Source: Pseudomonadota bacterium
GTDB taxonomy: Bacteria; Desulfobacterota; Desulfobulbia; Desulfobulbales; Desulfocapsaceae
DNA: 64,000 bases
Direction of reading: 5' to 3'
Assembly (NCBI GenBank): GCA_018817385.1
Contig: JAHIUA010000035.1
Coordinates: 124,001 to 188,000, forward strand
Below are positions 27,470 to 32,554 of the stretch, piece after piece. The notes below the pieces were generated by a model that saw nothing but the letters and a program-made list of their open reading frames with translations, searched no databases and was not told the DNA's origin. The first letter of the stretch is position 1, and every line of letters starts with the position of its first letter. The translations under genes and the position numbers were made by a program.

Positions 27470-28240
27470 ATGAAACCACTTTCTACAACCCTTATCACCA
27501 CAAGCCTGCTCCTGGCCACGGTCAGCCCGGGGACGGCCCATTTCGGCATGGTCATTCCCGCGCAACCCATTGTTACTGCCGAAAAGAGAACTGTCCAACT
27601 TGACCTCTCATTCTCCCACCCCTTTGAAGGGATAGGTATGGACCTGGTCAAACCAGCAAAGTTCTCTGTGATCAAGGATGGCAAAAAGACCGATCTCCTG
27701 CCCGGTCTCCAGGAAAGCAGGGTCATGGACCACCTTGCCTGGAAGGCTGATTTCCAGGTCAAACGGCCCGGAGTCTATCACTTTGTCATGGAACCGGCTC
27801 CCTACTGGGAACCCACAGAAGACCTCTCCATCATCCACTATACCAAGACGATTGTCCCGGCCTTTGGCTCAGAAGAGGGCTGGGATCAACCCCTGGGCCT
27901 GCCCACAGAGATCGTCCCCCTGCTCCGCCCCTTTGGCAACTATGCGGGCAACAGCTTCATTGGCCAGGTGCTGTTGGACAACAAACCGGTTGCCGGAGCC
28001 GAGGTAGAGGTGGAATTTTACAACAAGGAGCACAAATTCAAGGCCACAAGCGACTACCACATCACCCAAGTAGTCAAGGCAGACGCTGCAGGTATCTTTA
28101 GCTTCACCTGTCCCCAGCCAGGCTGGTGGGGATTTGCCGCCCTGAGCAGTGCTGACTACACCCTGAAAAATCCGCAGGGTGAAGAAAAAGGGGTGGAATT
28201 GGGAGCCGTGCTCTGGGTTCATATGGATCCCTGGCTATAG
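27470..28240 (+). CDS. nikK: DUF4198 (NikK/CbiK-like) nickel-uptake accessory protein
   Basis: A 256-residue exported protein: signal peptide of about 23 residues (ending GTAHF), then a DUF4198 beta-sandwich body containing HFGMVIP near the mature start, PFEGIGMDLVKP and PGWWGFAAL. DUF4198 proteins (COG5266, from memory) are extracytoplasmic parts of ECF-type Ni/Co uptake systems (NikK in NikKMLQO). The rest of such a set is at 36784-39517, and a [NiFe]-hydrogenase operon starts divergently 425 bases away, so nickel is the likely metal. A strong aaggagg site precedes the ATG. The mature N-terminal His after signal cleavage could be a metal ligand. Confidence 0.8.
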   Translation: MKPLSTTLITTSLLLATVSPGTAHFGMVIPAQPIVTAEKRTVQLDLSFSHPFEGIGMDLVKPAKFSVIKDGKKTDLLPGLQESRVMDHLAWKADFQVKRPGVYHFVMEPAPYWEPTEDLSIIHYTKTIVPAFGSEEGWDQPLGLPTEIVPLLRPFGNYAGNSFIGQVLLDNKPVAGAEVEVEFYNKEHKFKATSDYHITQVVKADAAGIFSFTCPQPGWWGFAALSSADYTLKNPQGEEKGVELGAVLWVHMDPWL

Positions 28241-28450: not shown

Positions 28451-29365
28451 TCAAACCTGGCAAGAACCATCACGGTCTCCAGTACCATCACCAGTACCGT
28501 CACCAGTACCGTCACAATCTCCTCTACTACGACCTTGTCCATTACCCGCCAAAGTGGGGAGGGCCATCTCTACTGCATCAAGACAAGAGCCATCACGATC
28601 TCCAGTGCCATCACCAGTACCACCGTCACCAGTACCGTCACAGTCTCCATCGCTGCCTGCGGAACCTTTCCCATTGTCGGCAAGAAAGGGCGTTACAGAC
28701 GGTAGGGTCATTTCTTCCTGCTGACCGCCTTTGAACTGATCACGAGCCTGATCACGTGTCTGAGTCTGGGTCTGAGTCTGAGCAGCGGAGTCGCTGGCTG
28801 CCAGAATGGGGTTTACAGACTGCATTGTCAGATCTTCCTTACAAGATTCATCACGATCACGAAGCTGGTCCTGGTCACCGGAGCCATTGCCGTTACCCTT
28901 ATCATACTTCACCAATATTGGTCCTGAGGCCTCTCCTGTCAGACCATCTTGGCAGGAACCATCACGGTCTCCAGTACCGTCACCAGTACCGTCACCAGTA
29001 CCGTCACAAGCTCCTTTACTGCGACTTCTTCCATCACCGGCCAGTGTCGGGGTTACAGGCTGCAGGGTCAGAGTTTGACAAGAACCGTCCCTAGCAGGAT
29101 CCTGAGTGCGATCCTGAGTGCGATCCTTAGTCCGATCAAGATCAGCTGCAAGAGCAGGACTTACCGATTGCATTGTCAAAGGGAGTAGTAGACAGTCGTC
29201 ACGATCACGTTCCTGATCACCGGCGCCGCTGCCGTTTTCGTCGCCACTATACACTCCAGCCAGCAACGACCCATCTATTGTTGTATTGGCCATTGCTGGA
29301 ACTGCAAGCAGGCCAAAAATCGCTGTTACACTAAGAAGGGTGGTCATTTTTTTTGAAAGTTTCAT
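28451..29365 (-). CDS. Secreted GTGD-repeat, Cys-bracketed acidic protein
   Basis: I do not recognise this protein. It is 304 residues with a clear signal peptide (hydrophobic core, cleavage after PAMA near residue 26). The mature part is very acidic and polar. Three blocks begin CDGTGDG and end DRDGSC, each holding GTGD repeats and bracketed by two Cys 18-19 residues apart. Five copies of a short hydrophobic unit of the type LTMQSVNPILA lie between. A QTQTQTQT run and D-R-T-Q repeats add to the low complexity. The Asp/Gly repeats could bind calcium; the Cys pairs could form disulfides. An ATG at 29374 is also in frame, but aggag is well spaced only for 29365. It is divergent from an ECF sigma gene and shares its promoter signature. 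Confidence 0.75.
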   Translation of the reverse strand: MKLSKKMTTLLSVTAIFGLLAVPAMANTTIDGSLLAGVYSGDENGSGAGDQERDRDDCLLLPLTMQSVSPALAADLDRTKDRTQDRTQDPARDGSCQTLTLQPVTPTLAGDGRSRSKGACDGTGDGTGDGTGDRDGSCQDGLTGEASGPILVKYDKGNGNGSGDQDQLRDRDESCKEDLTMQSVNPILAASDSAAQTQTQTQTRDQARDQFKGGQQEEMTLPSVTPFLADNGKGSAGSDGDCDGTGDGGTGDGTGDRDGSCLDAVEMALPTLAGNGQGRSRGDCDGTGDGTGDGTGDRDGSCQV

Positions 29366-29471
29366 CGTACTCATCTCCTGATTGAATTGTTCCCACCACG
29401 GGAAAATAATTAAGCGACTAAAGCCGCTCCCTTGTCTATCTCGAAGACCTGTTCAAGATCCATAGAGGGGG

Positions 29472-29498
29472 AAACGATTCAACAGGAAAAAAGTTACT
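29472..29498 (-). promoter_or_regulatory. Putative ECF promoter of the GTGD-repeat gene
   Basis: On the minus strand, AGTAAC (29498-29493) and CGTTT (29476-29472) are separated by 16 bases. The same -35, -10 and spacing occur in the divergent sigma-factor promoter. The predicted transcript would have a leader of about 95 bases. Confidence 0.6.
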
Positions 29499-29532
29499 AA
29501 AATAATTTTTTCAAAAAATTTGGCATTAAATA

Positions 29533-29559
29533 AGTAACCTGTACTCGATAAAAACGTTT
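29533..29559 (+). promoter_or_regulatory. Putative ECF promoter of the sigma-factor gene
   Basis: AGTAAC (29533-29538) and CGTTT (29555-29559) are separated by 16 bases. The -35 AAC and -10 CGT cores are typical of ECF sigma factors and fit autoregulation. The ATG at 29570 is only about 4 bases after the expected transcription start, so the mRNA would be nearly leaderless. Confidence 0.6.
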
Positions 29560-29569
29560 ACTATTTAAG

Positions 29570-30046
29570 ATGAATACTTTTAGAGAATTTTATAACGACA
29601 ATAAAGATCGGTTTTTTGGGTATCTTCTCCGCAGGAGTGGTGATCATTTCCTGGCTGCAGATACTCTGCAGGAGAGCTTTACCAAGTATCTTGAACGATA
29701 CGGCAAGGGGGAATTGAGTGTATCACTGCTCTTTACCATTGGTCGTAATCTGCTCAATGATAATTCCCGCAGACAACGCCCCAGCATCCCGTTCAACGAG
29801 GATGAGCATAGAAGCGAGGGTGATGAAGAATCCGCCTTTCTGGTACGCGAGGAATCACGCCGTGTCCTGGATGCACTGCAGCAACTTGATCCGGATGAAA
29901 TCGAGGTCCTGTCACTTGCCGTCAACAGTGGTCTTTCCTACAAGAAAATTGCTGAACACACCGGCACGAGCGAATCGAATATAAAGGTCAAAATTCACCG
30001 CTCTCGTCTTAAACTTAAAAAAATACTTCTTGCGAGTGAGCTATGA
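29570..30046 (+). CDS. ECF-type RNA polymerase sigma factor
   Basis: A 158-residue sigma-70 family protein with only regions 2 and 4. Region 2 has FGYLLRRSGDHFLAADTLQESFTKYLERYG. Region 4 has LQQLDPDEIEVLSLAVNSGLSYKKIAEHTGTSESNIKVKIHRSR, a normal helix-turn-helix. It should direct transcription from the AGTAAC-N16-CGTTT promoters on both sides of its start. The next gene overlaps its stop by 4 bases and encodes a membrane protein that looks like its anti-sigma factor. There is no in-frame ATG near that would allow a conventional leader. Confidence 0.87.
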   Translation: MNTFREFYNDNKDRFFGYLLRRSGDHFLAADTLQESFTKYLERYGKGELSVSLLFTIGRNLLNDNSRRQRPSIPFNEDEHRSEGDEESAFLVREESRRVLDALQQLDPDEIEVLSLAVNSGLSYKKIAEHTGTSESNIKVKIHRSRLKLKKILLASEL

Positions 30047-30630
30047 AAGAATATCTGATCAGTATGTTCATTGACAATGAGCTGAATCTGGATGAGAAAA
30101 TTGATTTTGTGAAAACGATACATAAAGAGCAACCCTTTAAAGATGAAGCGCTTGCTCTGTTGGAACAGGAAAAACTGATCCATGCCGAGTATCTGCATCA
30201 GGCCCCCCAGATACAGATACCAATGAAGCAAGAGCCTGAAAAAGGTTTTTCCATTCCCTGGTTGTGGCCTGCGGCACTGTTTTCCACCGGTGTCGCTCTT
30301 GGGGCTGCAGTCCTGTTTATGCTGCCGACATCGATTCCGATAGCAATACCTTCCACAACTGTGAGCACAGAAATCCCGCACCGCTTTGTCATCTACCGTC
30401 CACATGCCGAACAGGCAGATATCATTGGCACCTTTACCAACTGGCAACCGCTGGCCATGGAAAAGCTAGGACCCAGCGGCTACTGGAGCCTGACCCTGAA
30501 TCTTCCAGAAGGAGAATATCAGTACAGCTATCTTGTTGAAGATGGGCAACAAATTACAGACCCAACAGTATCGGAACGGGTACAGGATGACTTCGGTGGC
30601 GAAAATTCCATCCTCTCCGTCAAGGTCTAG
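30043..30630 (+). CDS. Membrane anti-sigma candidate with extracytoplasmic CBM48 domain
   Basis: A 195-residue protein. Residues 1-70 are soluble and begin MKEYLISMFIDNELNLDEK, like the short helical domain that starts many anti-sigma factors. One membrane segment follows (about 77-100, WLWPAALFSTGVALGAAVLF). The C-terminal 85 residues are an AMPK/isoamylase-type glycogen-binding (CBM48) domain: FVIYRP, IIGTFTNWQPLAM, GYWSLTLNLPEGEYQYSYLV. The CBM48 domain should face the periplasm. The overlap with the sigma gene supports a sigma/anti-sigma pair. The idea that it senses a glucan or another surface ligand is inference; no Zn-binding HxxxCxxC motif is seen. Confidence 0.75.
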   Translation: MKEYLISMFIDNELNLDEKIDFVKTIHKEQPFKDEALALLEQEKLIHAEYLHQAPQIQIPMKQEPEKGFSIPWLWPAALFSTGVALGAAVLFMLPTSIPIAIPSTTVSTEIPHRFVIYRPHAEQADIIGTFTNWQPLAMEKLGPSGYWSLTLNLPEGEYQYSYLVEDGQQITDPTVSERVQDDFGGENSILSVKV

Positions 30631-30802: not shown

Positions 30803-32554
30803 TTAGAGAAAAATTGGGCACCAATCCCCGGAAGCAAACTCTAACTTTTTTTCCAAGATGAGATGGAGACAGGCATCCACGCTGGGGGCGTGATAGAGGG
30901 TTCCCCTCCCTGAGCGGATTTGATCAAGGGCTTTGGTTATACCCAGTGATGGACGATAGGGACGGTGAGATGACATGGCTTCCACCACGTCAGCCACGGC
31001 AATAATCTTTGCTTCGAGAAGGATATCTTTATCGGTTAAGCCCCGAGGATAACCGGAACCATCGAGATGTTCATGATGCTGGTAGACGATATCCGCCACC
31101 GGCCAGGGAAATTGAATATTTTTTAATATTTCATAGCCCACCTCAGGATGAAATCTGATGATGGCCGTCTCCTCTTTGGAGAGTTTAGTTGGTTTAGAAA
31201 GATACTCGGACGGCAGGGTAATTTTGCCAATATCATGGAGCAAGGCGGCAATATGAAGCCCCTCGATCTGCGAATCTGGGAGCCCCAGTTCCCTTGCAAT
31301 TGCGCACGCCAAGATGTCTACCCGTTGTTGATGACCAGCAGTATAAGGGTCTCGTTTTTCAGCGGTAGAAGCCAGTGTTGCGACCGTTTGTTCCAAGCTG
31401 GCATGGAGATCATCCCGACTTTTCTTCAAATCCTCCAAGGCCAGTTTACGTACCGTAACATCGCGGGCAACACCCCGGTAGCCCAGCAACTTCTCCTGAT
31501 GATCAAAGACCGGCACCGCATTATTTTCAAGCACCACTATCTGACCGTTCTTTCCCAGGCAGGTGTTCTCCAACCCGTTAATAGGTTTTTGAGCATGAAG
31601 TATTTTAGTAAATGACGTACTGAATATTTTAGCCTGCTGCGGAGAGACGATATCCATCAGAGTTTTGCCCAGCATTTCTCCCGGCTCGAAGCCAAGCAGG
31701 TCCCTCACCCTTGGACTTGAATAGGTATATCTGCCGTCCTGATCACATGCCCATATCCAGTCACTGGTGGTTTCAAGCAGGTTACGATATCGCTCCTTGC
31801 TTTTTTCCAGGGACTTCAGCAGACCTTCCCGCTCAAGAAAAATACCTAATCGCTCTCGATCAGATAACATGGTCTGGCGAATGGAGTAAACAGCCAGCAG
31901 AGAAACAATAAATAAAATGGCCATGGAAATAGCGGTGAGTTTTCGGCGAATTTTGGCAATCTCGGCATGAATATCATCAATATACATCCCAGTGCCAATA
32001 ATCCAGCCCCAAGGTTCATAGCCTTTAACATAGGACATTTTGGAAGAAATTTTATCAGGGTTGTCCTTCCACTGCCACATGTAATCAACATACCCTGCTC
32101 CCTGTTTTTCAACCACACGGACAAATTCAAGAAAAAGGAGCTTCCCCCTTATGTCCTTGAAATCAGAGACATTCTTTCCTACCAGATCACTACGATAGGG
32201 GTGCATGATCATCCGCGGCTCCATGTCGTTGATCCAGAAGTAATCTTTTTGCTCCGGGCCATAACGAAGCTTGTTGATTCGCAGGATGGCCCGCTTCTTG
32301 GCCTCATCCTGGGTCAATTCGCCGAGTAGCTCTCGTTCATGGTATGACTCAAGTAAACTCCAGGTCGTTTCCGTCAACTCGCGGATCATTTCCTGCTTTC
32401 TACTGAGGAAGTTTTCCTCAAGCTGGGGCAGGAGAACGAAAAAGATAACGGTAATAAAAAGGAGGAGGGTAATAAAGGACGGCAAGGCTATACGGCGGGA
32501 AGTCTTGTTGGAAAGATCTCTTATTTTTTTTTCAAGAAGCATGGGAACAACCAT
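30803..32554 (-). CDS. Cache-PAS-HD-GYP cyclic-di-GMP phosphodiesterase
   Basis: A 583-residue membrane signalling protein. A first membrane segment (about 22-42) precedes an sCache-like sensor with KDYFWINDMEPRMIMHPYR and GYEPWGWIIGTGMYIDDI, then a second membrane segment (about 205-225), a PAS domain (about 262-375) and an HD-GYP domain. The latter has ALLHDIGKITLP and HHEHLDGSGYPRGL, the residues that degrade c-di-GMP. Its sensor is close to that of the kinase at 48253-51009. Two ATG codons (32554 and 32542) can serve as start. Confidence 0.88.
   Translation of the reverse strand: MVVPMLLEKKIRDLSNKTSRRIALPSFITLLLFITVIFFVLLPQLEENFLSRKQEMIRELTETTWSLLESYHERELLGELTQDEAKKRAILRINKLRYGPEQKDYFWINDMEPRMIMHPYRSDLVGKNVSDFKDIRGKLLFLEFVRVVEKQGAGYVDYMWQWKDNPDKISSKMSYVKGYEPWGWIIGTGMYIDDIHAEIAKIRRKLTAISMAILFIVSLLAVYSIRQTMLSDRERLGIFLEREGLLKSLEKSKERYRNLLETTSDWIWACDQDGRYTYSSPRVRDLLGFEPGEMLGKTLMDIVSPQQAKIFSTSFTKILHAQKPINGLENTCLGKNGQIVVLENNAVPVFDHQEKLLGYRGVARDVTVRKLALEDLKKSRDDLHASLEQTVATLASTAEKRDPYTAGHQQRVDILACAIARELGLPDSQIEGLHIAALLHDIGKITLPSEYLSKPTKLSKEETAIIRFHPEVGYEILKNIQFPWPVADIVYQHHEHLDGSGYPRGLTDKDILLEAKIIAVADVVEAMSSHRPYRPSLGITKALDQIRSGRGTLYHAPSVDACLHLILEKKLEFASGDWCPIFL

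Follow-up and report, generated by a model that had tools for sequence, protein, structure and literature searches.

A candidate envelope unit of an extracytoplasmic function sigma factor, a CBM48 anti-sigma factor, and secreted low-complexity proteins in Desulfobacterota

What might a sigma factor control when its gene overlaps that of a membrane protein with a carbohydrate-binding fold and diverges from that of a secreted repeat protein? The question is raised by a 64,000-nucleotide (nt) stretch, here called the window, of contig JAHIUA010000035.1 (positions 124,001 to 188,000, forward strand; assembly GCA_018817385.1), which derives from a bacterium of the Desulfocapsaceae. Positions 28451 to 30630 of the window hold an extracytoplasmic function (ECF)-type sigma gene, a putative anti-sigma gene, and, divergently, the repeat-protein gene. 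In our reading (probability, roughly 0.7), a conserved sigma/CBM48 anti-sigma envelope unit controls secreted low-complexity proteins from GTAAC-N16-CGTT promoters, and the window carries a shortened form made up of the sigma gene, the anti-sigma gene, and one target gene.

Genes and promoter-like sites of the window

The features on which the analysis draws are as follows (aa, amino acids).

29570..30046, +, ECF-type sigma factor, 158 aa (Pfam and sigma70-ECF model matches)
30043..30630, +, putative anti-sigma factor, 195 aa, with a predicted extracytoplasmic CBM48/AMPK-beta-type domain
30043..30192, +, N-terminal segment of the putative anti-sigma factor (three helices in the AlphaFold2 model; zf-HC2 matches in 3/27 members)
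30265..30321, +, predicted transmembrane helix, residues 75 to 93 (helix in the model; membrane placement from hydrophobic sequence)
30373..30627, +, CBM48/AMPK-beta-type domain, residues 111 to 195 (Pfam, model, and fold match)
28451..29374, −, Asp/Gly-rich repeat protein, predicted secreted, 307 aa, 9 Cys, signal-peptide-like N terminus (counterparts behind the common promoter in relatives)
28952..29008, −, repeat block 1, CDGTGDGTGDGTGDRDGSC
28583..28642, −, repeat block 2, CDGTGDGGTGDGTGDRDGSC
28460..28516, −, repeat block 3, CDGTGDGTGDGTGDRDGSC
29472..29498, −, AGTAAC-N16-CGTTT promoter-like site before the repeat protein (motif count; one of four GTAACNWTT-N12-CGTT sites genome-wide)
29533..29559, +, AGTAAC-N16-CGTTT promoter-like site before the sigma gene (start codon 11 nt past CGTT)

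An original prediction, made from the letters of the window, had named these genes, a 4-base overlap between the sigma and anti-sigma open reading frames (ORFs), a CBM48 outer domain, three repeat blocks, and two AGTAAC-N16-CGTTT sites, and all were recovered in place. AGTAAC-N15-17-CGTTT occurred twice in the window (0.03 expected), both times with N16 and once per transcription unit; 0 of 100 shuffles of the window contained two sites.

The sigma protein matched the sigma70-ECF superfamily model over residues 4 to 153 of 158 (69.5 bits; cut-off, 42.9) and Sigma70_r4_2 above the Pfam cut-off (E = 6.5e-13), with Sigma70_r2 under it (18.3; cut-off, 24). Judged by these profiles it is ECF-like, with regions 2 and 4 only, an assignment made at the superfamily level. 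The divergently encoded repeat protein (43 Asp, 50 Gly, and 9 Cys) contains exactly three CDGTGDG...DRDGSC blocks and had no Pfam or NCBIfam match at an E value of ≤1.

The AlphaFold2 model of the putative anti-sigma protein comprised N-terminal helices, a helix at residues 75 to 93, and a beta domain at residues 111 to 193, with a predicted local distance difference test score (pLDDT) of 85 to 93 in blocks from residue 111 and low to middling values at the 75-to-93 helix. Pfam recognized AMPK1_CBM (residues 117 to 194; E = 1.8e-9) and CBM_48 (residues 114 to 169; E = 1.5e-6), both over their cut-offs, and all 27 members of the anti-sigma family matched both models at an E value of ≤0.1. Foldseek aligned the beta domain with the AMPK beta glycogen-binding domain (1z0n_B; TM score, 0.87 on the target; E = 2e-9), with which it shares the fold and the GSFxxW, DP, and N motifs; unlike AMPK beta, the domain is here predicted to lie outside the membrane and is fused to a putative anti-sigma domain. 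The glycogen contacts of AMPK are W100, K126, W133, L146, and N150. Equivalents of W100 and N150 were invariant in the 27 aligned members, those of K126 and W133 were missing from all 27, and the L146 position was Phe. Since two of these five contacts are kept, a glycogen-like ligand is unsupported, and with it the glucan sensing that had been predicted for the domain; another polysaccharide is possible.

Gene order, the single predicted membrane helix, and a zf-HC2 relative argue for anti-sigma function. The relative is a CBM48 domain fused to a zf-HC2 anti-sigma domain over the Pfam cut-off in L097, the sole zf-HC2-looking locus of its kind scanned with Pfam, and this fusion lends independent support to the role. 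Within the family itself, zf-HC2 matches were weak (3/27 members; best E value, 0.0065), and the main family lacks the pair of Cys residues found in zf-HC2 relatives. Membership in the RsgI family was considered and rejected: the window protein has no RsgI domain according to Pfam, the 27 members together matched 10 families, none of them RsgI, and neither an RsgI N-terminal nor an autocleaving periplasmic domain was detected by Pfam.

A larger unit in relatives

The genome of the window carries a second sigma/anti-sigma copy on another contig (L002/L073). This paralogous pair is followed by a gene for a lipoprotein with a CBM48-like domain and then by one whose secreted product has an alpha-helical part and carries a GGSDGAGGSGGSDG tail, which shows that the window copy is shortened. 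A scan of species genomes with both anti-sigma proteins gave 23 loci, and among 56 relatives searched, 23 genomes had a match, several confined to the CBM48 part. The comparative set held 42 loci, the window included, after removal of duplicates on the same contigs (L013, L014, L015, L028, L029, and L157, equal to L064, L062, L069, L063, L065, and L020, respectively); L017, L018, and L019 were kept although close (anti-sigma proteins 95 to 96% alike), and six of the loci are pairs from three genomes (window/L073, L062/L063, and L064/L065).

The sigma gene adjoins the CBM48 anti-sigma gene in 42/42 loci. The co-occurrence in related genomes by which the prediction was to be checked is thus seen, and the unit is larger than had been noted: a second CBM48-type lipoprotein gene is present in 34/42 loci and a gene for a secreted, Gly/Ser-tailed alpha-helical protein in 35/42, so that the predicted trio of sigma factor, anti-sigma factor, and repeat protein recurs but is incomplete. 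Three of the seven loci lacking the helical gene (L022, L034, and L150) end at contig ends; in the other four (the window, L062, L064, and L033) it is missing from the stretch fetched, and the window also lacks the lipoprotein gene.

Anti-sigma and lipoprotein profiles aligned over their CBM48 parts (hhalign probability, 98%; E = 1.3e-13), indicating that the two domains are homologous, and the anti-sigma profile matched 30/35 lipoprotein ORFs at an E value of ≤1e-4. The position of W100 in the lipoproteins is Phe or Tyr in most members (by eye). Two Cys residues besides that of the lipobox were invariant in 19/19 CBM48-type lipoproteins, which suggests a disulfide. The helical protein was modeled as all-alpha (residues 51 to 240; pLDDT above 90 in most blocks) and had no Foldseek match at an E value of ≤0.001; a second fold search placed designed helical repeats in its best rows (Z up to 10.6), which proves neither kinship nor a new fold. 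Pfam gave scattered weak matches to helical proteins (best E value, 0.0053; at most 3/15 members, among the best 25 of 47 families). In L072, the sigma gene is preceded by an extra lipoprotein gene and an extra helical gene, and each of the two has a promoter-like site of its own.

Among 395 Desulfobacterota genomes, an anti-sigma match was found in 38 (19 nearly full length, the rest mainly in the CBM48 part) and a helical-protein match in 36; by our intersection, 31 genomes had both (3.5 expected). In distant loci (L092 to L102), a relative of the helical protein stood beside a CBM48 protein in 11/11 cases and a sigma gene was present in 10/11; a CxxCH heme-type protein, possibly a multiheme cytochrome, is encoded after the sigma, CBM48 anti-sigma, and helical genes in L095, L097, L098, and L099. 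Beyond this phylum, 24/50 genomes had a match in that of L026 (Denitrovibrio), presumably Deferribacterota. Eight loci were read there (one, L173, is L026 itself), and all eight had the sigma, anti-sigma, lipoprotein, and helical genes; the first gene encoded a Gly/Asp-rich secreted protein in 5/8, and a GTAAC...CGTT site preceded the cluster in 6/8. In the phylum of L033 (Flavobacteriaceae), 20/395 genomes had a match, 19 of them mainly in the CBM48 part. Seven loci of that phylum (L182 to L188) had a sigma gene, a CBM48 anti-sigma gene, and then a gene for a different protein of ~410 to 426 aa with a CBM48-type match (7/7), and no helical-protein match was found in the stretches fetched. A plasmid search returned only partial CBM48 matches, in six Vibrio or Pseudoalteromonas records.

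Promoter sites and apparent targets

GTAAC-N16-CGTT was present, as an exact match, upstream of 30/41 sigma genes (the number recognized by the site-count filter in the 42 loci) and 20/35 helical-protein genes, against 0/42 control stretches taken just upstream of the anti-sigma gene. In total, 78 sites occurred in 741,496 bp (both strands), where ~3 were expected from base counts. By our own assignment of sites to genes, 30 precede sigma genes, 22 helical-protein genes, and 16 secreted Gly/Asp-rich or DGSC-repeat genes (window, L062, L064, L067, L069, L071, L016, L018, L019, L021, L023, L024, L025, L026, L034, and L148); three precede cytochrome c peroxidase genes, three PAS-like protein genes, one a lipoprotein gene, and one a gene for a 114-aa secreted protein. 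These account for 76 of the 78, the other two lying in L022 (near a contig end, just past a lipoprotein gene) and L153. The promoter was thus found before repeat-type genes in relatives, as had been anticipated; these repeat proteins differ in sequence and share signal-peptide-like starts, and many carry blocks such as GPGDGTGTGDGPKDGTGNGPGTGDC.

The distance from CGTT to the sigma start codon was exactly 11 nt in 22/30 cases and 9 to 13 nt in 27/30 (window, 29555 to 29570), taking the start that fits the alignment and, where several were possible, one that we chose. Given so short a distance, the sigma mRNA may be almost leaderless. The sigma promoter is of the AAC...CGT type and apparently autoregulated. 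Recurrence of the trio, together with a common promoter before sigma and secreted genes, strongly suggests that the sigma factor drives its own gene and that of the repeat protein, as first proposed. The unit is probably autoregulated, then, with secreted low-complexity proteins as its main apparent targets.

Across the window's own genome, AGTAAC-N16-CGTTT occurred at 8 sites, two of them the window pair and the other six in L004 to L009, compared with 30 for the backward control, so this string alone detects no regulon. GTAACNWTT-N12-CGTT, which misses the window's own sigma promoter, was used instead and gave four sites in 5.4 Mb (backward control, 1): the window repeat-protein promoter and sites before a protein with a weak, below-cut-off PAS match, before a pair of small proteins belonging to no Pfam family, and before a di-heme cytochrome c peroxidase whose start lies 490 nt downstream. 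Relatives of these products were located by tblastn. In L031, L035, and L145, the gene immediately preceding the sigma gene encodes a relative of the PAS-like protein; L068 also has such a relative, at a greater distance upstream of the sigma gene. L031 encodes relatives of both small proteins close to the unit, L139 encodes relatives of both past a promoter site, and L068 has a relative of one of them. For the peroxidase, relatives were located close to the unit in four loci (L063, L065, L068, and L073), and in L172 one follows a promoter site and a repeat-type protein. Further promoter sites precede a DUF2202 protein gene in L141 and, in genome G032, a gene for a secreted protein with two PGSCK blocks. 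A clostripain-family (Peptidase_C11) gene also stands behind a GTAAC-N16-CGTT site (L139:7301-8665).

Whole-genome counts of the pattern covered 51 genomes: 26 with the system and 25 relatives listed as being without it, the latter smaller on average. There were 52 sites in the former and 14 in the latter (backward controls, 43 and 40, respectively), with the anti-sigma gene no more than 3 kb away from 35 of the 52 (our sums). One of the 25 relatives, G026, carries such a sigma gene at a contig end (L145, by eye). The whole-genome signal is therefore the contrast with the 25 relatives plus the position of the sites.

Several observations weigh against the proposed unit and its regulon. The 52 sites only slightly exceed the backward control of 43 in the same 26 genomes, so that pattern counts alone do not define a regulon. 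An exact site was absent from the 230 bp upstream of 11/41 sigma genes (L073, L063, L065, L068, L071, L026, L030, L031, L033, L034, and L035) and from the stretch tested for 15/35 helical-protein genes. The N-terminal part of the anti-sigma protein aligned with the zf-HC2 type at an hhalign probability of only 4%. The surface or matrix role is proposed from signal peptides and composition alone, and the model as a whole is built on sequence and predicted structure, the sigma/anti-sigma contact being itself a prediction.

Mechanism, competing explanations, and known systems

In the mechanism that we propose, the membrane-anchored anti-sigma factor would hold the ECF sigma factor through its N-terminal helices and expose its CBM48-fold domain, the likely sensor, outside the membrane. 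An envelope change would be sensed by this domain, probably jointly with the co-encoded CBM48-type lipoprotein where one exists, and the sigma factor would then be released, most likely via proteolysis, as for other one-helix anti-sigma factors. Free sigma factor would transcribe its own gene and the secreted low-complexity genes from GTAAC-N16-CGTT promoters, the targets being Asp/Gly/Cys repeat proteins and the alpha-helical protein with a Gly/Ser tail; in some species, the set probably extends to DUF2202 proteins, a PAS-like protein, and a di-heme cytochrome c peroxidase. Under envelope stress, the cell would thereby make or repair a surface or matrix coat. The secreted low-complexity targets point to a coat of this kind, a matrix, or a protective layer, and the peroxidase and DUF2202 targets suggest a stress component in some species.

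What the CBM48 domain reads can be explained in more than one way. That it binds an alpha-glucan or an envelope polysaccharide, and that binding frees the sigma factor in the manner of biomass sensing by RsgI, is possible but doubtful: the domain folds like the glycogen-binding domain of AMPK, with W100 and N150 equivalents invariant in all 27 members, but the K126 and W133 equivalents are missing throughout and L146 is replaced by Phe, the lipoproteins mostly have Phe or Tyr in place of W100, and no carbohydrate-active gene was recognized behind the promoter sites read, no systematic search having been made. Carbohydrate-binding modules do have a firm precedent in anti-sigma factors, namely those of the RsgI type (PMC12203970). 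Alternatively, the anti-sigma domain may be a protein-protein module set by the co-encoded CBM48-type envelope protein, reading the state or export of the cell's own surface assembly. In 34/42 loci, the stretch just past the anti-sigma gene encodes a homologous domain, its ORFs are largely (30/35) within reach of the anti-sigma profile, a CBM48-type protein is encoded next in all seven loci read in the phylum of L033, and the lipoproteins keep their two invariant Cys residues (19/19). With a second CBM48-type envelope protein so often encoded alongside, such a relay is about as likely as a polysaccharide ligand. It stays a tentative proposal, however, as the window locus has no lipoprotein, which must be dispensable there or provided by the paralogous locus.

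A unit mainly devoted to defending the envelope against oxidants, its secreted proteins being sacrificial or metal binding, is also possible but doubtful. Promoters before di-heme cytochrome c peroxidases (L073, L063, and L065; L108 at 490 nt) and before the DUF2202 protein (L141) fit it, as do the regularly placed Cys and Asp residues of the window repeat protein; against this, among the 42 loci as fetched, a single query each detected relatives of the peroxidase in 4 and of the DUF2202 protein in 5, and the zf-HC2 relatives have a Cys pair that the main family lacks. The sigma pair, the repeat protein, and the promoter-like sites could be unrelated neighbors, given that low-complexity sequences and short motifs can occur together by chance; we reject this as extremely improbable because the same promoter recurs in many genomes and two phyla. 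The conserved envelope unit with secreted low-complexity targets is the reading that we retain, and an undescribed envelope or surface regulon of the ECF/anti-sigma kind describes it best. A bolder and speculative version, which we consider unlikely to hold in full, is a five-part envelope program in at least two phyla, in which a sigma factor and its CBM48 anti-sigma factor, adjusted by a second CBM48 envelope protein, would build an extracellular coat or fiber from Asp/Gly/Cys repeat proteins and helical Gly/Ser-tailed proteins, with CBM48 serving as an envelope-protein signaling module and not as a glycogen binder. Both phyla presumably consist mostly of anaerobic bacteria.

The nearest ECF system is the RpoE/RseA-type pair with a class I membrane anti-sigma factor. 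It likewise combines a two-region sigma factor, an overlapping downstream gene for a one-helix membrane protein, and an apparently autoregulated promoter; the present system differs in the CBM48 fold of the outer domain and in its low-complexity secreted outputs. With RseA/RseB of Escherichia coli sigma-E it has in common an anti-sigma factor and a co-encoded envelope protein that could tune it. RseB is not known to contain a CBM48 domain, whereas the anti-sigma factor and the lipoprotein described here have a homologous domain. SigI/RsgI of Clostridium thermocellum is similar in that its anti-sigma factor spans the membrane once and can carry a carbohydrate-binding module as its outer domain (PMC12203970), in contrast to which the present system has no RsgI domain by Pfam, an ECF-like sigma factor, a module of family 48, and no polysaccharide-degrading enzyme recognized among the targets read. 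EcfG-type factors are described as using AAC in the −35 and CGTT in the −10 element (PMC8103513), both of which also occur here.

Literature searches, judged by their listings, returned no paper describing a sigma/CBM48 system, in agreement with the prediction that it is undescribed. According to PMC8103513, 102 of 157 ECF groups are without functional insight; the window sigma factor may already fall in one of the 157. If the model is true, an extracytoplasmic CBM48 domain would have a signaling role, and the helical Gly-tailed proteins and the window repeat protein, for which Pfam gave no convincing match, are probable surface components of sediment bacteria. The system has members in named strains (Desulfopila sp. 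IMCC35008 and Desulfogranum marinum DSM 2058), and with a sharp promoter and a defined gene set, this makes the regulon directly testable.

Two neighboring genes complete the locus. The repeat-protein gene is flanked on its other side by a gene (window 27470 to 28240) whose product, with a signal-peptide-like start, matches DUF4198 (E = 3.4e-59). Downstream of the anti-sigma gene, a convergent sCache-PAS-HD_5 gene (window 30803 to 32554) was found, which, judged from N termini, adjoins the unit in L062 and L064 too.

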